8,035 nt of DNA, taken from positions 1 through 8,035 of the forward strand of contig JAAYEN010000262.1 of NCBI GenBank assembly GCA_012728775.1, read 5' to 3'. Origin of the DNA: Tissierellia bacterium (GTDB lineage Bacteria > Bacillota_A > Clostridia > Tissierellales > Peptoniphilaceae). Position numbers and translations under genes: made by a program. Positions 1 to 8,035 of this stretch are shown here, piece by piece; position 1 is the first letter of the stretch, and every line of letters starts with the position of its first letter. The notes below the pieces were generated by a model. It did not search any database. It was not told where the DNA came from and saw only the letters and a program-made list of their open reading frames with translations.

Positions 1-324
1 ACTGAAAGAATAAATGGACATGTAGAAGATGGATTTATGACAGCAGATGAAGCAAATGAAAGAATCACATCAATTAAAACTTATATAGAAGGTGCAACTG
101 CTTTAGAATTGAACAATGGAATGAGACAAGGCGGAAGAAGAGGAATAGGCTTGAATGCTCCTATGAAACAATCTTCAAGAATGAATGGGAACTTTAACAG
201 AGGAAATGGAGTTCAAGATGGAACAGGAGCAGGTTTAAGGGATGGATTTAACCAAGGAAGAGGTTTAGCAAATGGTACTGGATTGGGAATGAAAGACGGT
301 TCAGGCCCAATGTGTAACAGATAA
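1..324 (+). CDS. 3' part of a glycine-rich protein, DUF2680-like (5' truncated)
   Basis: The reading frame is open from base 1, so the gene begins upstream of the window; 107 residues are visible. The in-frame ATG at 37 is probably internal, because the upstream codons continue the same charged helical region. Residues 1-35 look like a short helix-turn-helix-like hairpin with the pattern VEDGFMTADEANERI, similar to the 'DGxlTxeEAxxr' segments of DUF2680-type Firmicutes proteins (family resemblance only). Residues 40-107 are rich in Gly, Asn and Arg, and contain two near-copies of a ten-residue unit, DGTGAGLRDG (73-82) and NGTGLGMKDG (91-100). The protein ends in Cys-Asn-Arg. No catalytic motif is visible. 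The family often has a signal peptide, but that end is missing here. Function is unknown; the protein may be exported. It ends just before a strong hairpin terminator. Confidence 0.6.
   Translation, partial: TERINGHVEDGFMTADEANERITSIKTYIEGATALELNNGMRQGGRRGIGLNAPMKQSSRMNGNFNRGNGVQDGTGAGLRDGFNQGRGLANGTGLGMKDGSGPMCNR
217..300 (+). repeat. Two-copy glycine-rich protein repeat (30-bp units)
   Basis: Within the first gene, codons for DGTGAGLRDG (217-246) and NGTGLGMKDG (271-300) form a degenerate tandem unit with an 18-residue period. The similarity is clearer in protein than in DNA, which suggests an old internal duplication or selection for a low-complexity Gly/Asp/Lys/Arg surface. Confidence 0.4.
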
Positions 325-344
325 AATAAATAACTGAATTGAAA

Positions 345-373
345 AGCCAGAGGATATAATAAGTCCTCTGGCT
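345..373. terminator. Bidirectional Rho-independent terminator
   Basis: A perfect 10-bp inverted repeat (AGCCAGAGGA at 345-354, TCCTCTGGCT at 364-373) with a 9-nt loop is followed by a T-rich tract on the + strand. It is preceded by an A-rich tract, which becomes a T-rich tail on the - strand. It lies between the convergent glycine-rich gene (+) and permease gene (-), so it can end transcripts from both sides. Confidence 0.85.
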
Positions 374-381
374 AATTTTAT

Positions 382-1302
382 TTATAATTGATCTTCTGGT
401 CTTCTAGATCTTCTTGGTATCATTATTAAAATTAAAGCAGTAACTACCAAGGCTATGCCTATATAATCTAAATAAATAAATATAACTCCCATAAAGGTCG
501 TGGCGATAATTGTAGAAAATACAGTTTCCAACAAACTCAAAATACTGGCAATCACTGGGCTTACTATTTGTGCTCCAGTCATATATATTAAAAATGGAAT
601 GAGTGTTCCAAATATTGACACGTATAAAATCCCTAAGATACTTTGTAAATCTATAATAAATGGAATTTTCCAGGGTTGGTTTAATAATCCAAAAACCAAT
701 CCAGCAATTAACATGCTCCATCCATTAACAGCTATAACACCATATTTTTTTTGTAAAGGATGGGGGAGAATATTAAAAAGAGTAGATCCTAAAGTGCCCA
801 TTAGTCCAGATAGAAGAGCTATTTTAGACACAGCTAAACTTCCTATATCGCCGTGAGTAATCAGTAAAAAGCCACCATACAAAGCTAAAATCAAAGCTAA
901 CACAGTTTTTAATGGTGGAAATCTTCTTGCTACAATTGATGAAATTAAAATTACAAAAAAAGGAGCGAATTGTTGAAGTACTATGGCGGTAGCAGCGTTA
1001 GAATGTTTGACAGTTACGAAATAAAAATACTGCATGGTGAAAAGTCCACCAAAAGCAAAAAGCAACATTCTGAAAATATCTTTTCGATTTTCAAATACAT
1101 TAAAGAAATTTTTTGATTTATCAAAATAATGAGCTACTAACTGAATTGATCCAGCTATTACTAATCTAATTGTGACCAAATGTTCCGGTGTCACTTCTTT
1201 AGATTTAAATAAAAAAGCCCCAACATTACCACCTATGGCCCAAAATAAAGTTGCTAAAACAATTATAAATACACCAAATACTTTAGTTTCTCTAAATTTC
1301 AT
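382..1302 (-). CDS. EamA/DMT-superfamily permease
   Basis: A hydrophobic protein of about 306 residues with roughly ten membrane segments in two homologous halves (about 10-150 and 160-298), the architecture of EamA-domain drug/metabolite transporters. The first half starts with a segment containing FWAIGGNVGAFLF. The second half ends with the 'SPVIASILSLLETVFSTI' segment, matching the family's 'a.ais.l..lePv.a.l' motif, and then a basic tail. The acidic residue usual in the 'lgE' part of each half is not obvious here. The substrate cannot be predicted; relatives export amino acids, metabolites or nucleotide sugars. Two ATGs are adjacent (1305 and 1302). The Shine-Dalgarno-like AAGGAA (minus strand, 1307-1312) sits one base from the first and four from the second, so I prefer 1302. 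The gene has its own promoter, so it appears monocistronic. Confidence 0.85.
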   Translation of the reverse strand: MKFRETKVFGVFIIVLATLFWAIGGNVGAFLFKSKEVTPEHLVTIRLVIAGSIQLVAHYFDKSKNFFNVFENRKDIFRMLLFAFGGLFTMQYFYFVTVKHSNAATAIVLQQFAPFFVILISSIVARRFPPLKTVLALILALYGGFLLITHGDIGSLAVSKIALLSGLMGTLGSTLFNILPHPLQKKYGVIAVNGWSMLIAGLVFGLLNQPWKIPFIIDLQSILGILYVSIFGTLIPFLIYMTGAQIVSPVIASILSLLETVFSTIIATTFMGVIFIYLDYIGIALVVTALILIMIPRRSRRPEDQL

Positions 1303-1335
1303 CATATTCCTTTTCGATTCAATATTTTCAAATAT

Positions 1336-1364
1336 ATTATAACTTATAAAAGATCAAATGCAAA
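1336..1364 (-). promoter_or_regulatory. Sigma-A-type promoter of the permease gene
   Basis: On the minus strand TTTGCA (1359-1364) and TATAAT (1336-1341) are separated by 17 bp. The -10 is perfect and the -35 matches 4 of 6 consensus bases. The expected start near 1329 would leave a leader of about 25 nt before the permease start. This is a pattern match only. Confidence 0.55.
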
Positions 1365-1450
1365 CAATTTAGCATAAAAAAAGTTAAAAAAATGGCTTGA
1401 TTACTTAATTACAGCTAGTTATCAATTCGGGTTAATATTACATATTCACT

Positions 1451-1478
1451 AAAAAAACTTGGGAAAATTCCCAAGTTC
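1451..1478 (-). terminator. Rho-independent terminator after the SDR gene
   Basis: Read on the minus strand, AACTTGGGAA pairs with TTCCCAAGTT around a very short loop, and a run of seven T follows. It begins about 23 bp beyond the SDR stop codon and separates that transcript from the downstream permease promoter. The 195-bp spacer 1303-1500 holds this hairpin and the permease promoter; I see no further gene in it. Confidence 0.85.
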
Positions 1479-1500
1479 TCGACAAAGTATTTATTTAAAA

Positions 1501-2265
1501 TTAATATGCTGTCCATCCGCCATCTACTACCAATGCGTGGCCATTTGTAAATGATGCTTCATCAGATGCTAGATATAAAAATGCGTATGCCAGTTCTTCA
1601 GGCTTTCCAAAAGTTGGAAATATTTCAACACCTTTCATTAGTTTATCTAAGGATTTCATATCAGGATTTTTTACACTTTCTCCAATTTCTGTTCCAACAG
1701 AGCCTGGAGCTACAGCATTACATCTAATTCCATCATCTGCATAAGTGTAAGCGATATTTTTAGTCATACCTATAACGGCATGTTTAGAAGCTACATACGC
1801 AAGCCCGCCTCTCATTCCATGAAGTCCGCCTACAGATGCAGTATTTACAATTGAGCCTTTTTTGTTTCCAAGCATAGTTGGAAGAACTAATTTTGAAAGT
1901 TTCATCACTGCGTGAACATTGATATCAAAAACTTTCATCCACAAATCTTCTTCAACATTTTCTAAAGATTTATACTCATCTAGTATACCAGCGTTGTTTA
2001 TTAAAATATCTATAGTTCCATATTTTTCTAGGGTAGCATCAACTAGATGTTTTAAATCTTCATCTTTTCCTACATCGGCAGATACTGGATAAATTTCTCC
2101 AGAGAAACCACCGTCAGCAATTTCTTTTTGTAAATCTTCCAATCTTTCCGATCTTCTAGCTGCGGCTACTACTTTAGCTCCTTCTTTTGCGAATAAGGCA
2201 GCTACAGCTTTTCCAATACCAGAACTTGCACCTGTTACAATTGCTACTTTATTTTCTAGTCTCAT
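1501..2265 (-). CDS. Short-chain dehydrogenase/reductase (classical SDR)
   Basis: 254 residues, the normal length for a classical SDR with a Rossmann fold. The cofactor motif TGASSGIG is at 11-18, NNAG at 90-93, the structural Asn at 116, catalytic Ser at 144, and the Tyr157-x-x-x-Lys161 pair in YVASK; a PG motif follows at 187-188. The pair Arg37-Arg38 after the second beta strand suggests preference for NADP(H) over NAD(H). The C-terminal end 'LVVDGGWTAY' is typical of the 3-oxoacyl-ACP reductase/glucose dehydrogenase-like branch, but the substrate cannot be read from the sequence. It is a soluble cytoplasmic enzyme. The ATG at 2265 has a well-placed GGAGG (minus strand, 2273-2277). The gene is transcribed away from the pump/pxp operon and ends at its own terminator, so a link to that operon is not implied. 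Confidence 0.9.
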   Translation of the reverse strand: MRLENKVAIVTGASSGIGKAVAALFAKEGAKVVAAARRSERLEDLQKEIADGGFSGEIYPVSADVGKDEDLKHLVDATLEKYGTIDILINNAGILDEYKSLENVEEDLWMKVFDINVHAVMKLSKLVLPTMLGNKKGSIVNTASVGGLHGMRGGLAYVASKHAVIGMTKNIAYTYADDGIRCNAVAPGSVGTEIGESVKNPDMKSLDKLMKGVEIFPTFGKPEELAYAFLYLASDEASFTNGHALVVDGGWTAY

Positions 2266-2404
2266 AAACGTACCTCCATTTTATAAATATTTATTGCAAT
2301 AAAGTTTTACCCTAATCTGCATTAATTTACTCATATTAAGATTTATTAAGGATTTTATAAATAAGAATAAATTATTATGAACTTAAGAAATTGGATAGAT
2401 AATA

Positions 2405-2413
2405 TGCTATAAT
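2405..2413 (+). promoter_or_regulatory. Extended -10 promoter of the pump/pxp operon
   Basis: TGCTATAAT is a perfect extended -10 element (TGn plus TATAAT). No good -35 sits at 17 bp; the nearest weak candidate is TTAAGA at 2383-2388 (19-bp spacer), which fits the idea that the TGn compensates. A start near 2420 would give a leader of about 100 nt containing the cre site. A second TATAAT at 2424-2429 lacks a -35 and is less likely. I see no convincing promoter for the opposite SDR gene in 2266-2523. Confidence 0.5.
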
Positions 2414-2479
2414 AAAAACGTAATATAATACTATTTGTTAATTATATGGTTTCACTTATTTAAAAGTAATCAATGAACA

Positions 2480-2493
2480 TGAAAACGTTATCA
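2480..2493 (+). promoter_or_regulatory. Catabolite-responsive element (cre), CcpA operator
   Basis: TGAAAACGTTATCA matches the Bacillota cre consensus TGWAANCGNTNWCA at every defined position. It lies downstream of the predicted start site and 31 bp before the first gene. That placement is typical of CcpA repression by roadblock, so repression by preferred sugars is inferred. CcpA itself is not in the window. Confidence 0.75.
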
Positions 2494-2504
2494 CAAAATC
2501 TAAT

Positions 2505-2514
2505 TTGTTAACAA
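2505..2514. repeat. TTGTTAACAA palindrome abutting the first ribosome site
   Basis: A perfect 10-bp palindrome whose last two bases overlap the AAGGAGGA ribosome site of the OadG-like gene. Its left part belongs to a 9-bp direct repeat, ATTTGTTAA, found at 2433-2441 and 2503-2511 exactly 70 bp apart. It may be an operator, or a chance result of AT-rich sequence. Confidence 0.3.
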
Positions 2515-2523
2515 GGAGGAAAG

Positions 2524-2817
2524 ATGGCAAATTCTATTTCGATGGTTGAAGGATTATTAATAACTGTAATAAGTATGATGGTAGTATTTGTTGTGTTGAT
2601 GATTATTGCTGTAATAATCAAATTGCTAGAAAATATTAACGGACAAGATGTAATCAAAAAGTCTGATCCAGAAGAGCTAGAACCTAAAATTGTTGCGGCT
2701 ATAGTAGCATCAGTAAATGAGTTTATTGAAGAAGAAAGAATTTCTCACGAGATGACGGCAGCTATGATGGGGGCGTTAAAAGTTCACCTTAGGAATGAAC
2801 GAAAATTAATTAAATAA
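2524..2817 (+). CDS. OadG-family small membrane subunit of a Na+-pump decarboxylase
   Basis: 97 residues with one strong N-terminal membrane helix (about 9-35) followed by a charged cytoplasmic tail. This matches the OAD gamma/delta family (OadG, MmdD, GcdD). In that family the subunit anchors the complex and holds the carboxyltransferase and biotin subunits to the membrane beta subunit. The tail segment 'LEPKIVAAIVASVNEF' (52-67) resembles the conserved 'elvAAIaAAi' region of the MmdD/GcdD branch. There is no His-rich metal-binding end as in Klebsiella OadG. A further 25-residue basic helix closes the protein. The ATG at 2524 follows AAGGAGGA at 2513-2520. It is the first gene of the inferred seven-gene operon, and the biotin carrier begins 31 bp downstream. 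The family call rests on topology, tail motif and neighbours, since such short proteins are weakly conserved. Confidence 0.8.
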   Translation: MANSISMVEGLLITVISMMVVFVVLMIIAVIIKLLENINGQDVIKKSDPEELEPKIVAAIVASVNEFIEEERISHEMTAAMMGALKVHLRNERKLIK

Positions 2818-2848
2818 TTGGAAGCTTAATTTTACTTAGGAGGATTAA

Positions 2849-3202
2849 ATGAAAAAATATGTTGTAACTGTAAATGGCATCTCATATGAAGTTGAAGTTG
2901 AAGAAATGACTGACGGAACCCATGTGGTTGAAAAAATTGAACCCCAGAGGAATCAAGAATCCCAAATTGAGACCCGTGAAGTTGTTGAAAAAACTGAAAT
3001 TTCTGCACCTATGCCAGGAAATATTTTGAAAGTTTTAGTCAAAGTTGGTGAAAAAGTTAATTCTGGAGATACTTTGATGATATTAGAAGCTTTAAAAATG
3101 GAAAACGAAATACTTGCATCTAGTGATGGTGAGGTAAGTTCCATCAATGTCAAAGAAGGTCAGGCTGTAGATACGGGAGAATTATTAGTTGTTTTGGCCT
3201 AA
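2849..3202 (+). CDS. Biotin carboxyl carrier subunit (GcdC/MmdC-like)
   Basis: 117 residues. An N-terminal strand region (1-30, starting KKYVVTVNGISYEVEV) resembles the start of glutaconyl-/methylmalonyl-CoA decarboxylase biotin subunits. A short, charged linker (31-48) lacks the usual Ala/Pro-rich hinge. The C-terminal biotinyl domain has the APMPG turn (53-57) and the biotinylation motif EALKMEN (80-86). Lys83, 34 residues from the C terminus, is the predicted biotin attachment site and would be modified by a biotin ligase encoded elsewhere. Leu82 replaces the common Met of AMKM. The role is to carry the carboxyl group between a soluble carboxyltransferase and the OadB-like membrane subunit. 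AGGAGG at 2838-2843 is well placed for the ATG, and the beta subunit gene follows after 25 bp. A lipoyl carrier is unlikely given the KM motif and the neighbours. Confidence 0.92.
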   Translation: MKKYVVTVNGISYEVEVEEMTDGTHVVEKIEPQRNQESQIETREVVEKTEISAPMPGNILKVLVKVGEKVNSGDTLMILEALKMENEILASSDGEVSSINVKEGQAVDTGELLVVLA

Positions 3203-3227
3203 CTTCAAGAAAGAAAGGAATGTGTAA

Positions 3228-4424
3228 ATGTTTGTAGATGTAATTTATGAATTCTTATCTAGCACAGGCATAGCTAATATCGATATTGGCCAAATCATTA
3301 TGTTACTTATATCTTTTTTTCTTTTGTATTTGGCTATAGTGAAGGAATTTGAACCTTTGCTTTTGATACCCATAGCTTTTGGGATGTTACTTGCAAATCT
3401 ACCTTTGGCTGGATTATTTAATGAACCTATTGTGGAAATTATAAAAGACCCTAAGACAGGTGAGTTGGTTTCTAAAACATTAGAACCAGGTGGACTCCTT
3501 TATTACTTATATCTTGGTGTTAAACTTGGAATATATCCTCCGCTAATTTTTATGGGGGTAGGTGCGATGACGGATTTCGGGCCTCTTATTGCTAATCCTA
3601 AAAGTTTGTTATTGGGCTCTGCTGCTCAATTTGGAATATTTACTACTTTTTTAGGAGCTATTCTACTTAATCAATTGGGACTTGTACCTTTTACTCCTCA
3701 AGAAGCTGCTAGCATTGGAATCATTGGAGGAGCCGATGGACCAACTGCATTGTTTTTAACATCTAAATTGGCACCTCATCTTTTAGGACCTATCGCTGTG
3801 GCTGCGTATTCATATATGGCTTTGGTTCCTATTATACAACCTCCTATAATGAAAGCTTTAACTACAGAAGATGAACGTAAAATCGTAATGAAACAACTTA
3901 GAGTTGTTAGCAAAAAAGAAAAAATTATTTTCCCAATTGTAGTAACAGTCGTTGTTAGTTTAATATTACCATCTGCTGCTTCTTTAGTAGGCATGCTAAT
4001 GCTTGGGAATCTGTTTAGAGAATCTTTATTAACAGATAGATTGTCAAAAACAGCTCAAAATGAATTGATGAATATTGTAACAATATTTTTAGGAGTTACT
4101 GTTGGAGCAACTGCCAACGCTGAAACCTTTTTGTCAGTAAAAACTTTAAGCATAATAGCTTTAGGACTTTTAGCGTTTTCAGTGGGAACTGCTAGTGGAG
4201 TATTATTTGCAAAATTGATGAATAAATTCGTAAAGGACAAAGTAAATCCGCTTATAGGTTCTGCCGGCGTTTCTGCAGTGCCTATGGCTGCACGTGTATC
4301 CCAAAAGGTTGGTCAAGAAGCTAATCCTAGTAACTTCTTATTAATGCATGCAATGGGACCAAACGTTGCTGGTGTTATCGGTTCTGCTGTAGCAGCTGGA
4401 ATGCTTTTAAATTTCTTTGGATAA
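3228..4424 (+). CDS. Na+-translocating decarboxylase beta subunit (OadB/MmdB/GcdB family)
   Basis: 398 residues and very hydrophobic. This is the membrane subunit that decarboxylates carboxybiotin and exports Na+ in oxaloacetate, methylmalonyl-CoA and glutaconyl-CoA decarboxylases. The residues reported as functionally important in Klebsiella OadB appear at a constant offset: Asp170 in GGADGPT (Asp203), Tyr196 in AYSYMALVP (Tyr229), Asn340, Gly344 and Ser349 in [10 protein letters not shown] (Asn373, Gly377, Ser382), and Arg356 (Arg389). The signature [21 protein letters not shown] spans 110-130. It therefore looks catalytically intact. A hydrophilic stretch at about 65-87 looks longer than in the relatives I recall. 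The natural substrate partner cannot be told from this subunit. The start has an AAAGGAA ribosome site, and the gene lies between the biotin carrier and pxpA in the same direction. Confidence 0.93.
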
Positions 4425-4461
4425 AATAGGTAACAATGGGTTTTGAACCTAAAAAATAAAT

Positions 4462-4466
4462 GGAGG
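4462..4466 (+). promoter_or_regulatory. Ribosome site that fixes the pxpA start
   Basis: GGAGG lies 9 bases before the ATG at 4476. A possible TTG start at 4443 would put this site inside the coding frame and add 11 residues unlike the family, so 4476 is chosen. Confidence 0.75.
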
Positions 4467-4475
4467 TATAGTAAT

Positions 4476-5243
4476 ATGAAGATTGTAGATTTGAACTCAG
4501 ATATTGGAGAAAGTTTTGGTAGCTATACATTAGGTCTTGACAAAGAAGTTATTAAATTTGTTAGTAGTGTGAATATTGCTTGTGGATGGCATGCAGGTGA
4601 TGCTCTTATTATGGACGATACTGTGAAAAATGCAGTGGATCAGGGAGTAGCTATTGGTGCTCACCCAGGTTATCCTGATTTAGTTGGATTTGGAAGAAGA
4701 AATATGGATATTTCTTTAAAAGAAGCAAGAGCATATATTTTATATCAATATGGAGCATTACAAGCTTTTGCCCAAGCTCATAAAACTTTTGTCCAACATA
4801 TAAAACTTCACGGAGCATTTTATAATACTGCTTCAGTGGATGAAAAATTTGCAAAGGCTATATTAGATATGATGTTGGAATTAGACGAAAATTTAATTTT
4901 AATGGCACTAAGTGGCTCGTTAATTGCAAAAATGGCAAAAGAGATGGGTGTTAAAGTTGCTCAGGAAGTATTTGCCGATAGGGCATATAACAAAGATGGT
5001 ACTTTGGTGAGTAGAAAAATTGAAGGTTCTGTAATTCATGATGCTGATGAAGCTATTGCAAGAACTAAACGTATGATTTTGGAAGGAAAAGTTACTACAA
5101 TTGATGGAGAGGACATTGATATTGTAGCTGATTCTATTTGCGTACATGGAGATAATCCTGAAGCTGTAGAATTTGTAAAAAATATTAGAAAGAGTTTGAT
5201 AGATGAAGGAATAGAAATTAAGCCACTACATGAATTTATTTAA
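4476..5243 (+). CDS. pxpA: 5-oxoprolinase subunit A (LamB/YcsF family)
   Basis: 255 residues, the usual family length. PxpA is the subunit of the PxpABC 5-oxoprolinase thought to open the 5-oxoproline ring to give glutamate; it is a cytoplasmic barrel-fold protein. Visible motifs in order are DLNSDIGESFG (5-15), NIACGWHAGD (33-42), GAHPGYPD (61-68), GFGRR (71-75), KLHGAFYN (110-117), EVFADRAY (164-171) and VHGDNPEA (223-230). Several positions differ from the common form: ACGWHAGD for ACGFHAGD, KLHGAFYN for KPHGALYN, and LVSR for L.PR around residue 180. The metal- and acid-type residues (Asp, His, Glu) are kept, so it is probably active but belongs to a divergent branch. The stop codon overlaps the ribosome site of the next gene, pointing to coupled translation. 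Confidence 0.92.
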   Translation: MKIVDLNSDIGESFGSYTLGLDKEVIKFVSSVNIACGWHAGDALIMDDTVKNAVDQGVAIGAHPGYPDLVGFGRRNMDISLKEARAYILYQYGALQAFAQAHKTFVQHIKLHGAFYNTASVDEKFAKAILDMMLELDENLILMALSGSLIAKMAKEMGVKVAQEVFADRAYNKDGTLVSRKIEGSVIHDADEAIARTKRMILEGKVTTIDGEDIDIVADSICVHGDNPEAVEFVKNIRKSLIDEGIEIKPLHEFI

Positions 5244-5248
5244 GGAGG
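5243..5248 (+). promoter_or_regulatory. Ribosome site overlapping the pxpA stop
   Basis: AGGAGG shares its first base with the pxpA TAA (5241-5243) and stands six bases before the transporter ATG at 5255. Ribosomes ending pxpA can restart on the transporter gene. Confidence 0.7.
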
Positions 5249-5254
5249 ATTTAG

Positions 5255-6445
5255 ATGTCGGATAAGAAAAAGAATTTTTCGGTAGTTTTAGGAGCCGCGT
5301 TTTTGATGGCGACCTCGGCTATAGGACCTGGGTTTTTGACCCAAACTGCAACATTTACAGAGTCTTTGGGAGCTAATTTCGGATTTGTAATATTAATATC
5401 TTTGATTTTTTCCTTAATTGCACAGCTTAATGTATGGAGAGTAATAGGTGTATCACAACTAAGAGGTCAAGATATAGCTAATAAAGTATTGCCAGGACTT
5501 GGATATTTTGTAGCTTTTCTAGTAGCTTTAGGTGGACTGGCGTTTAATATTGGTAATGTTGGAGGAGCAGCACTTGGTCTTAATGTAATATTTGGTTTGG
5601 ATTTAAAAATTGGTGCAGCCATTTCTGCCATTATTGCCATTGGAATCTTCCTTTCCAAAGAAGCTGGCAAGACTATGGATACCTTGACAAAAGTTTTAGG
5701 TGGAGCGATGATTATTCTCATTGGTTATGTTGCGTTGACGACTAAACCTCCCGTTGGAGAAGCTGTTGCAAGAACATTTTTACCATCTGAAATTAACTTA
5801 CTTTCCATAGTAACTTTAGTGGGAGGAACAGTTGGTGGATATATTATTTTCTCTGGAGGTCATAGACTTTTAGATGCTGGAATTAGTGGAAGGGAAAATC
5901 TTGGAGATGTTACACAATCAGCGTTGACTGGAATGGGAGTAGCAGCTATTGTTAGGGTTTTATTATTCTTGGCAATTTTAGGCGTTGTTACAAAAGGATT
6001 TGTTTTAGATCCTGGAAATCCACCGGCATCTGCATTCCAACACGGTGCTGGAACAATAGGATATAAATTTTTTGGTGTTGTAATTTGGGCAGCTGCCTTA
6101 TCTTCTATTGTAGGAGCGGCTTATACCTCTGTATCCTTCTTAACTACTTTGGCAAAGATTTTTGGAGATAATGAAAACAAGTGGATAATCGGATTTATAT
6201 CTATGTCAACATTAATTTTTATGACTATTGGTCAGCCAGTTACATTATTGGTAGTTGCTGGTTCTTTGAACGGGCTTATTCTTCCTATAACTTTAGGCGT
6301 AATGCTAATAGCTTCTAAGAAAAAAGAAATAATTGGGGATTACGAGCATCCGCAAATTCTCTATATTTTAGGCTGGGTTGTAGTAGTGGTAATGTTTGTG
6401 TTTGGTCTAAGATCTTTAAAGGGTATTCTAGCCCTGTTTGGATAA
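5255..6445 (+). CDS. Nramp-fold transporter lacking metal-ligand motifs (YcsG-like)
   Basis: 396 residues with about eleven membrane segments, related to the Nramp family and thus to the LeuT-fold APC superfamily. The relationship shows in the first helix (GPGFLTQTATFTESLGANFG, 24-43) and in the following layout. In true Mn/Fe transporters helix 1 carries DPGN and helix 6 carries MPHN; here the first is GPGF (24-27) and the helix-6 region reads GGTVGGYIIFSGGHRLLD (190-207). The metal-binding Asp, Asn and Met are therefore absent. Bacillus ycsG is a related gene that also sits between pxpA (ycsF) and pxpB (kipI). I infer an organic-substrate permease, most simply for 5-oxoproline or its precursor, possibly coupled to Na+ or H+. 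Mg2+ transport, known for some Nramp-related proteins, is an alternative. The start follows AGGAGG with a six-base spacing. Confidence 0.85.
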   Translation: MSDKKKNFSVVLGAAFLMATSAIGPGFLTQTATFTESLGANFGFVILISLIFSLIAQLNVWRVIGVSQLRGQDIANKVLPGLGYFVAFLVALGGLAFNIGNVGGAALGLNVIFGLDLKIGAAISAIIAIGIFLSKEAGKTMDTLTKVLGGAMIILIGYVALTTKPPVGEAVARTFLPSEINLLSIVTLVGGTVGGYIIFSGGHRLLDAGISGRENLGDVTQSALTGMGVAAIVRVLLFLAILGVVTKGFVLDPGNPPASAFQHGAGTIGYKFFGVVIWAAALSSIVGAAYTSVSFLTTLAKIFGDNENKWIIGFISMSTLIFMTIGQPVTLLVVAGSLNGLILPITLGVMLIASKKKEIIGDYEHPQILYILGWVVVVVMFVFGLRSLKGILALFG

Positions 6446-6448
6446 GGC

Positions 6449-6456
6449 GAGGTGAT
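6449..6456 (+). promoter_or_regulatory. Ribosome site that selects a TTG start for pxpB
   Basis: GAGGTGAT complements the 3' end of 16S rRNA over eight bases and is followed, four bases later, by TTG at 6461. A GTG at 6452 is inside this element and lacks its own good site, so TTG is the better start. Confidence 0.7.
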
Positions 6457-6460
6457 AGAA

Positions 6461-7201
6461 TTGTACGATGAAGTAAAATATTCTCCTTCGGGAGACAAGG
6501 CATTGGTTATGGAATTTGGAAACGCAATAGACCCAAGCATAAATGCAAAGATTAGAAATGTTTTAAATGCTATAAAAAAAGCGGACTTAACATCCATCGA
6601 AGAAATAATTCCCACATATAGATCTATTTTAATAATTTATAACCCATTGTTAAAAAGATATAAAGAAATGATAGAAGAACTAAAAAAATTGGAAGGAAGT
6701 ATTGGAGAAGAAGCCAGTGGTATTGTGAAGATATTTGAAATACCTACAACCTATGGTGGGGAATATGGGCCAGATATTGAATTTGTAGCTCAGCACAATA
6801 ACTTAACTATTGAAGAAGTAATAGACATTCATACTTCTACAAATTATTTAATATATATGCTGGGATTTACTCCTGGATTTACATATTTAGGAGGCTTGGA
6901 TAAAAGAATAGAAACTCCTAGACTAGAAAATCCTAGAACAAAAATACCTGCAGGTTCAACAGGAATTGCCGGAAAGCAAACGGGAATTTATCCAATAGAA
7001 AGTCCTGGAGGTTGGCAGCTAATTGGTAGAACTCCAGTAAAATTATATGATCCATTTAATGATCCGCCTGTAATACTAAGTGCGGGAGATTATGTGAGAT
7101 TTGTTCGTATAGACGAAGAAGAGTTTTTAAGAATAAAAAATGAAGTGGAAAAAGGAACTTATGAAGTAGTAGTTCGAGAGGAGGTGGACAATTTTGCCTA
7201 A
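6461..7201 (+). CDS. pxpB: 5-oxoprolinase subunit B (KipI/PxpB family)
   Basis: 246 residues from the TTG at 6461, so the protein begins MYDEVKYSPSGDKAL, which aligns with the usual 'xxxpaGDxALlveFG' start. Motifs: SGDKALVMEFG (10-20), IPTYRSILIIYNP (50-62), the IPTTYGG region (94-100), GFTPGF (135-140), and the C-terminal signature KIPAGSTGIAGKQTGIYP (161-178) plus SPGGWQLIGRTP (181-192). PxpB pairs with PxpC in the cytoplasm. In E. coli, PxpA, PxpB and PxpC together give ATP-dependent 5-oxoprolinase. In Bacillus the homologue KipI was first described as an inhibitor of the sporulation kinase KinA. The PxpB/PxpC pair is homologous to the carboxyltransferase domain of urea carboxylase, which matters here because a biotin carrier is in the same operon. 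The stop overlaps the pxpC start by 8 bp. Confidence 0.93.
   Translation: MYDEVKYSPSGDKALVMEFGNAIDPSINAKIRNVLNAIKKADLTSIEEIIPTYRSILIIYNPLLKRYKEMIEELKKLEGSIGEEASGIVKIFEIPTTYGGEYGPDIEFVAQHNNLTIEEVIDIHTSTNYLIYMLGFTPGFTYLGGLDKRIETPRLENPRTKIPAGSTGIAGKQTGIYPIESPGGWQLIGRTPVKLYDPFNDPPVILSAGDYVRFVRIDEEEFLRIKNEVEKGTYEVVVREEVDNFA
7179..7186 (+). promoter_or_regulatory. Ribosome site for the pxpC TTG start
   Basis: AGGAGGTG, inside the end of pxpB, stands seven bases before TTG at 7194. No ATG is available at the N terminus expected for the family. Confidence 0.75.
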
Positions 7202-8035
7202 AATATTAATTAAAAATCCAGGACTCCTCACCACGATTCAAGATAAAGGTAGATGGGGATTTCAAAACGTCGGAATGCCTGTAGCAGGTGCCATGGATCA
7301 ATATGCGCTACGATGTGCAAATCTACTAGTAGGAAATGACGAGTATGAAGGTGTTTTAGAAGTAACATTTATGGGACCAGAAATAGAATTTCAATGTGAC
7401 GAAATAATTAGTATAACTGGTGCAAATATGAATCCAATGGTAAATGGAAAAGAAGTGCCTATGTGGCAATCTGTTTTTATAAAAGCTGGTGACGTTCTTA
7501 AGCTTTCAGGAGTAAAATCAGGCCTTAGAGGTTATATTGGATTTAGCAGAGGATTTGACGTGCCTGTTGCTATGAAAAGTAAGTCCACTTATTTAAGAGG
7601 AAATCTCGGAGGCTTCGATGGAAGGGCTTTAAAACAAAATGATGAGATTAGTCTAAATGAAAAAAACTTAGAAGAATATGGCTATATATTAGACGAGAAG
7701 TTTATTCCGAAGTATTCCAAATCAGAAAATATTAGAGTGGTATTTGGTCCACAAGATGATTATTTTTCAGAAGAAGCTAAAAAAGTATTTACTACATCGG
7801 AATATGTTATTTCTTCTGAATCAGACAGAATGGGCTTTAGGCTAGATGGTCCAAAAGTAGAGCACTTAGAAGGTGCGGACATAATTTCTGACGGAATAGT
7901 TTTTGGCTCAGTCCAAATTCCAGGTCACGGAAATCCGATCGTGATGATGGCAGATAGACAAACTACAGGAGGATATACTAAAATAGCTACTGTAATTAGC
8001 GCTGATTTACCTAAAGTAGCCCAAATGGGACCGGG
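7194..8035 (+). CDS. pxpC: 5-oxoprolinase subunit C (KipA/PxpC family), 3' truncated by window
   Basis: The frame opens at TTG 7194 and stays open to the last base, giving 280 residues; family members usually run to about 310-340, so only the C-terminal end is missing. Family motifs are clear: the N-terminal 'NPGLLTTIQDKGRWGFQ' (8-24), GMPVAGAMD (27-35), ANLLVGN (42-48), SDRMGFRLDG (210-219), and the signature running from IPGHGNPIVMMADRQTTGGY (242-261) into KIATVISADLP (262-272). PxpC forms the paired partner of PxpB in 5-oxoprolinase and matches the KipA half of the urea carboxylase carboxyltransferase domain. The 8-bp overlap with pxpB and the embedded AGGAGGTG support translational coupling and a fixed 1:1 ratio. 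Nothing suggests a broken gene. Further operon genes, such as a biotin carboxylase or an alpha subunit, could follow outside the window. Confidence 0.93.
   Translation, partial: MPKILIKNPGLLTTIQDKGRWGFQNVGMPVAGAMDQYALRCANLLVGNDEYEGVLEVTFMGPEIEFQCDEIISITGANMNPMVNGKEVPMWQSVFIKAGDVLKLSGVKSGLRGYIGFSRGFDVPVAMKSKSTYLRGNLGGFDGRALKQNDEISLNEKNLEEYGYILDEKFIPKYSKSENIRVVFGPQDDYFSEEAKKVFTTSEYVISSESDRMGFRLDGPKVEHLEGADIISDGIVFGSVQIPGHGNPIVMMADRQTTGGYTKIATVISADLPKVAQMGP

Follow-up and report, generated by a model that had tools for sequence, protein, structure and literature searches.

A set of seven genes with an operon-like layout was analyzed in an 8,035-nucleotide stretch of DNA from a Tissierellia bacterium (GCA_012728775.1, contig JAAYEN010000262.1, positions 1 to 8,035), here termed the window. 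The set joins three subunits of a sodium-pump decarboxylase (delta, biotin carrier and beta) to the 5-oxoprolinase genes pxpA, pxpB and pxpC and the gene of an Nramp-like transporter. The explanation that we favor, with about even confidence, is that delta, carrier and beta form the membrane half of a biotin-dependent, Na+-translocating decarboxylase, the alpha subunit of which would be GcdA-like and encoded elsewhere, and that this half is co-expressed with the conversion of 5-oxoproline to glutamate. The products of pxpAGBC would import 5-oxoproline and then convert it to glutamate with adenosine triphosphate (ATP). Glutamate would be fermented through 2-hydroxyglutarate and glutaconyl-coenzyme A (CoA) to crotonyl-CoA and CO2, with Na+ exported by the beta subunit, and the operon would tie glutamate production to the Na+ pump that serves this fermentation. 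The existence of an alpha subunit in the window's organism, its identity (GcdA-type being likelier than MmdA) and the direction of the pump are matters that we infer. At a minimum, the arrangement links the use of 5-oxoproline to sodium bioenergetics in amino-acid fermenters. The genes concerned are as follows.

2524..2817, plus strand: OadG/GcdD-like gamma/delta subunit, 97 amino acids (PF04277, 37.2 bits, cut-off 27)
2849..3202, plus strand: biotin carrier of the pump type, 117 amino acids, with an EALKM motif and an Ala/Pro-poor linker (PF00364, 72.2 bits)
3228..4424, plus strand: OadB/MmdB/GcdB-type beta subunit, 398 amino acids (PF03977, 545 bits; TIGR01109, 541 bits)
4476..5243, plus strand: pxpA, 5-oxoprolinase subunit A, 255 amino acids from the ATG at 4476 (PF03746, 333 bits; NF003814)
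5255..6445, plus strand: Nramp-like transporter of the YcsG/PxpT/PxpG kind (PF01566, 76 bits)
6452..7201, plus strand: pxpB, starting at GTG 6452 or TTG 6461 (PF02682; TIGR00370, 216 bits, cut-off 145.6)
7194..8033, plus strand: pxpC, 280 codons within the window, truncated by its end (PF02626; TIGR00724, 297 bits, cut-off 230.2)

Layout of the operon

Protein families were assigned by Pfam and NCBIfam profile scans of the ten proteins of the window. The reading frames of all seven genes are open and, with the starts listed, the gaps from oadG to pxpC are 31, 25, 51, 11, 6 and −8 bp. Judged by eye, a Shine-Dalgarno-like stretch lies upstream of all seven starts; that of pxpB is better placed for TTG 6461, which is in frame, than for GTG 6452, and TTG is the more likely start. 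Only two terminator-like sites were detected between 2200 and 8035, both on the minus strand inside pxpB and below the shuffle mean; none was found on the plus strand. As the short-chain dehydrogenase (SDR) gene on the left is divergent, oadG opens the operon. The original prediction had described an OadG-like subunit, a carrier and an intact OadB in one close-packed operon with pxpA, a transporter, pxpB and pxpC, and this was borne out by the families, by gaps of no more than 51 bp and by the lack of a plus-strand terminator. Its statement that neither an alpha carboxyltransferase nor a biotin carboxylase is encoded from 2266 to the window end also held, none being present among the ten proteins scanned in a window that stops inside pxpC.

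A separate alpha subunit in relatives

In two relatives, G207 and G168, the same module stands beside pxp and the alpha gene stands apart. The order in both is delta-carrier-beta-gltS-pxpA-Nramp-pxpB-pxpC, with the pump and pxp genes co-directional. Further on in the same contig are a gene of the 2-hydroxyacid dehydrogenase family (a family-level label only), a glutamate dehydrogenase gene on the other strand and the run gctA-gctB-gcdA-hgdC-hgdA-hgdB. The distance from gcdA to the beta gene is 13 kb in G207 and 15 kb in G168, and each genome has a single OadB match and no second one. The GcdA of G207 matched 1pix with 949.6 bits over 579 residues, its GctA matched 1poi and its HgdA matched a 2-hydroxyisocaproyl-CoA dehydratase; several of the scores behind the CoA-transferase, dehydratase, GltS and glutamate dehydrogenase labels are below the NCBIfam equivalog cut-offs. 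A nitrilase was named by eye, and the label of a hydro-lyase (DUF1445) gene is presumptive. In G247, pxp is 12 kb from a gcd/hgd cluster and on the opposite strand.

A known system has a comparable layout. According to the available part of PMC3035267, which cites Braune et al. 1999, Acidaminococcus fermentans has gcdB, gcdC and gcdD in a second operon, which is separated from that of gcdA by nearly 15 kb. There, as in the window, delta, carrier and beta are together without alpha, which in A. fermentans belongs to another operon. Unlike gcdBCD, for which a link to pxp is not described in that part of the paper, the window module is joined to pxp and its OadB is MmdB-like. The spacing of beta and alpha in G207 and G168 is also like that of A. 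fermentans, but with pxp in between. The window shares with the gcd-gltS-pxp loci of these two relatives a delta-carrier-beta module upstream of, and co-directional with, pxpA-Nramp-pxpB-pxpC, whereas the relatives have gltS between the two parts, a beta subunit of another clade and GcdA as alpha.

Two side observations concern these loci. Reverse-transcriptase-like and transposase-like genes, so named by eye, are inserted around gcd-pxp of G168 (L122:1778-3169, 9571-10981 and 14786-16177). Lone OadB-like genes, 51 to 52% identical to that of the window and with no carrier match, are present in G144 (L123:7111-8235) and G259 (L264:7723-8793), where they adjoin glutamate dehydrogenase and follow pxp, in the same orientation, after a few kilobases; G144 additionally has a normal gcd/hgd cluster.

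Pump subunits and the tail of delta

Six functional positions of the beta subunit were checked. Equivalents of Asp203, Tyr229, Asn373, Gly377, Ser382 and Arg389 are all kept in the window OadB (6/6; alignment to 6iva) and, judged from its sequence, the subunit is intact. The small gamma/delta subunit is above the cut-off of PF04277 and, with 33.7 bits, below that of NCBIfam oadG_fam (36.05). Its relative P0001 (93% identical) has nearly the same C-terminus.

The window delta, like those of G241, G207 and G168, lacks a C-terminal tail containing tryptophan (W). Scoring any delta-candidate open reading frame (ORF) with W among its last 40 residues, the tail was present beside MmdA at 54 of the 55 loci having a delta candidate (56 such OadB), but at 0/8 beside GcdA (11 OadB), 0/17 beside OadA (34 OadB) and 0/3 beside pxp (4 OadB). 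It was found at 4/5 loci with both MmdA and OadA and at 26 of 30 with no alpha within 8 kb and a delta candidate (37 OadB). The only candidate beside MmdA without the tail was L060:9232-9486. This correlation was spotted after looking, and a stricter first filter, giving 48/48 beside MmdA, had missed that exception. In the available part of PMC7145394 the delta C-terminus of the Clostridium symbiosum glutaconyl-CoA decarboxylase is proposed to connect to GcdA; the tail therefore plausibly follows the identity of the alpha partner and could serve as a simple putative marker for predicting the partner of orphan modules. An MmdA encoded elsewhere was considered as the partner of the window module and is unlikely, because the window delta lacks the tail seen beside MmdA, although its OadB is MmdB-like.

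Several observations weigh against the favored explanation. The window OadB is 84% identical to the MmdB of G121 and 82% to the OadB of G241, and it is to these that it is nearest, not to the GcdB of G207 and G168. A quick tree placed the window, G121 and G241 in a three-member group without internal resolution (Shimodaira-Hasegawa-like approximate likelihood ratio test, 92) inside a mostly MmdB clade, separate from the clade of G207 and G168. The EALKM biotin motif of the carrier is a minority form, seen in one of 101 carrier-like ORFs at OadB loci (EAMKM in 85; the 101 include some false members) and, among the 120 protein relatives listed, in 4, one of them 97% identical. No glutamate-fermentation gene was recognized among the window proteins by the Pfam and NCBIfam scans. 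Finally, an alpha subunit encoded elsewhere fails for G241 as assembled. The contig of this relative (2.51 Mb, by its size about the whole genome) gave no match to GcdA, HgdA or GctA, and queries with MmdA, OadA and AccC matched only AccC, AccD, AccA and a DmpG-type aldolase. As to the position of the beta subunit, the same mostly MmdB clade contains the GcdA-linked OadB of G226, indicating that a change of alpha partner does occur.

The pxp half

PxpA, PxpB and PxpC are all encoded in the window, above the cut-offs of PF03746, TIGR00370 and TIGR00724; the truncated PxpC scored 235.7 of the 500 bits of equivalog NF045499. The four genes are an ordinary pxpAGBC set. According to the available part of PMC13274462, Clostridioides difficile pxpAGBC comprises four genes of the same kinds, and YcsG/PxpT, the counterpart of the window's Nramp-like protein, is required for 5-oxoproline use; by analogy with these homologues, 5-oxoproline uptake is the probable role of the transporter. 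The same text assumes that PxpB/PxpC phosphorylate 5-oxoproline using ATP, and gives an equilibrium constant, [glutamate]/[5-oxoproline], of about 0.035. The order in the window matches the C. difficile name, and the genes are those of C. difficile pxpAGBC and Bacillus subtilis pxpA-ycsG, but pump genes are not mentioned for the pxp regions of either species in that part of PMC13274462.

In the taxonomic order to which the window belongs, the usual pxp form was pxpA-Nramp-pxpB-pxpC with neither pump nor biotin genes inside 1.5 kb or in the longer stretches examined. In a tree of PxpA, PxpB and PxpC, the window was among ordinary sets, in a polytomy with G241, G105, G002 and G117/G121/G118, and far from the Lactiplantibacillus plantarum plasmid set carrying accB and accC, to which its proteins are 39 to 49% identical. 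The L. plantarum set was joined, via long branches, by a Bacillus badius set in which no accBC is annotated. It resembles the window in encoding a carrier with pxp and differs in that AccC, a biotin carboxylase, takes the place of OadB and delta. Two further statements of the original prediction were upheld: accB/accC-type genes do occur near pxp in other bacteria, as in this plasmid set, and PxpB/PxpC proved homologous to the carboxyltransferase of urea carboxylase. As a side observation, PDB entry 9yx5 shows a long-chain acyl-CoA carboxylase complex of mycobacteria with the PxpB/PxpC homologues MSMEG_0435-0436 attached.

Frequency of pump-pxp linkage

Linkage was surveyed in samples of the class, phylum and order. 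For the class and phylum, loci with stronger matches were scanned with a reach of 1.5 kb and weaker matches were left out. The class sample had pxpA in 40/391 genomes and pump genes within reach at 1 of 30 loci scanned (that of G241); the phylum sample had pxpA in 121/398 genomes and pump genes at 0 of 29 further loci. The order sample comprised 249 genomes, with a PxpB match in 48/199 (one weak) and PxpA in 12 of 51 further entries (two of them repeats). OadB was matched in 43 of the 48 genomes searched (47 bearing PxpB, plus G002). Among the matches listed for the order, G207 and G168 had beta, delta and carrier co-directional with pxp and no more than about 6 kb from it, the module was divergent in G241, and G144 and G259 had lone OadB-like genes. 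About 18 kb separates pxp from an mmd cluster in G121. Conversely, none of 80 OadB loci from genome contigs had a pxp match in the surrounding DNA. A widespread, conserved pump-pxp operon was therefore rejected, linkage being rare. The gene order of the original prediction recurs only in part: it is co-directional in G207 and G168, but with gltS inserted, divergent in G241 and otherwise rare. Since the OadB of G207/G168 and of the window/G241 fall in separate clades, the sequences point to at least two origins of the linkage.

No alpha match was found within 8 kb for 37 of 147 OadB ORFs, some of them at contig ends. Modules with no alpha nearby are hence common, and the lack of one in the window says little in favor of a new enzyme. 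Among such loci, delta-beta pairs lacking any nearby match to a carrier or an alpha were observed in a similar neighborhood in Caproiciproducens faecalis and two metagenome-assembled Clostridia genomes (L021:9572-11224, L043:9575-11224 and L037:9449-11125); the deltas of the L021 and L043 pairs have the W tail.

Alternative explanations

The original prediction had proposed that PxpB/PxpC may supply the pump with its missing carboxyltransferase. Carboxylation of biotin would be driven by Na+ entering through the beta subunit, the carboxyl group would pass to 5-oxoproline and PxpA would open the ring, the Na+ gradient replacing ATP. We consider this unlikely, and judge as equally doubtful the wider proposal of an OadB-delta-carrier complex having PxpB/PxpC as its only carboxyltransferase, which would open 5-oxoproline without ATP by Na+ influx or run in reverse with Na+ export. 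The idea draws most on G241, the relative that best fits a pump module with no dedicated alpha: its one OadB match is beside pxp, and its contig holds no MmdA, GcdA or OadA match. The G241 module resembles that of the window in its OadB, its delta without an MmdA-type tail and the lack of an adjacent alpha; unlike the window module, it (delta-carrier-beta) diverges from pxpA-Nramp-pxpB-pxpC and has its carrier split over two frames. The homology to urea carboxylase, the occurrence of pxp with accB-accC, the complex in 9yx5, the tails of the window and G241 deltas and the small energy need implied by the equilibrium constant in PMC13274462 favor a carboxyltransferase role as well. Set against this are the conventional alpha of G207 and G168 (GcdA, 13 to 15 kb away), the rarity of the linkage, the scanned pxp loci, most of which have no pump or biotin gene in reach, the low identity to the accBC-linked L. 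plantarum set and the ATP-dependent phosphorylation assumed in the available text of PMC13274462. In the papers searched, which lacked most subscription journals, no operon joining a Na+-pump module to 5-oxoprolinase was found; none combined 5-oxoprolinase with both oxaloacetate decarboxylase and sodium, and none treated 5-oxoproline together with methylmalonyl-CoA decarboxylase. If PxpB/PxpC were the carboxyltransferase, this would bear on what these proteins do and, to our knowledge, would be the first Na+-driven opening of a lactam.

It is also rather improbable that delta, carrier and beta are an orphan module, left beside pxp with reduced or no function after an mmd-type operon lost its alpha. 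The position of the window and G241 OadB inside a mostly MmdB clade would fit such a loss, as would deltas lacking the tail found beside MmdA, the split carrier of G241 (L155:8946-9309) and the linker of the window carrier, which has at most 4 Ala+Pro per 30 residues and ties for the lowest of the 101 carrier-like ORFs. However, the window OadB is full length, close to the G121 MmdB and conserved at all six positions checked, the frames are intact, and the C-terminus of delta is nearly unchanged in a 93% identical relative, as is the carrier's motif, without any change, in one of 97% identity. Moreover, AccC of G241 is likewise split (L266:7718-9104), which suggests that this assembly is error-prone, and the carrier split may therefore be a sequencing or assembly error. 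An alpha gene directly downstream of pxpC would be hidden by the end of the window inside that gene; this is very unlikely, as pxpC is followed by a gene other than an alpha in each of the linked relatives G207, G168 and G241. The favored explanation, a membrane half served by a GcdA-like alpha encoded elsewhere, is the one to which G207 and G168 conform.

Other features of the window

Three features were detected to the left of the operon, the two transport and dehydrogenase genes having no evident tie to it.

1501-2265, minus strand: SDR
382-1305, minus strand: EamA-type transporter
1-324: terminal part of an ORF rich in Gly, Asn and Arg, which matched no Pfam or NCBIfam family

An Rfam scan of the window gave no match and a tRNA search detected none. 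Megablast of the window against plasmids returned a single weak match, in the oadB region. In protein searches, the nearest named relatives of PxpB were from Tissierellaceae and Tissierella, and closer relatives had identities of 93% for delta, 97% for the carrier and 99% for PxpB.

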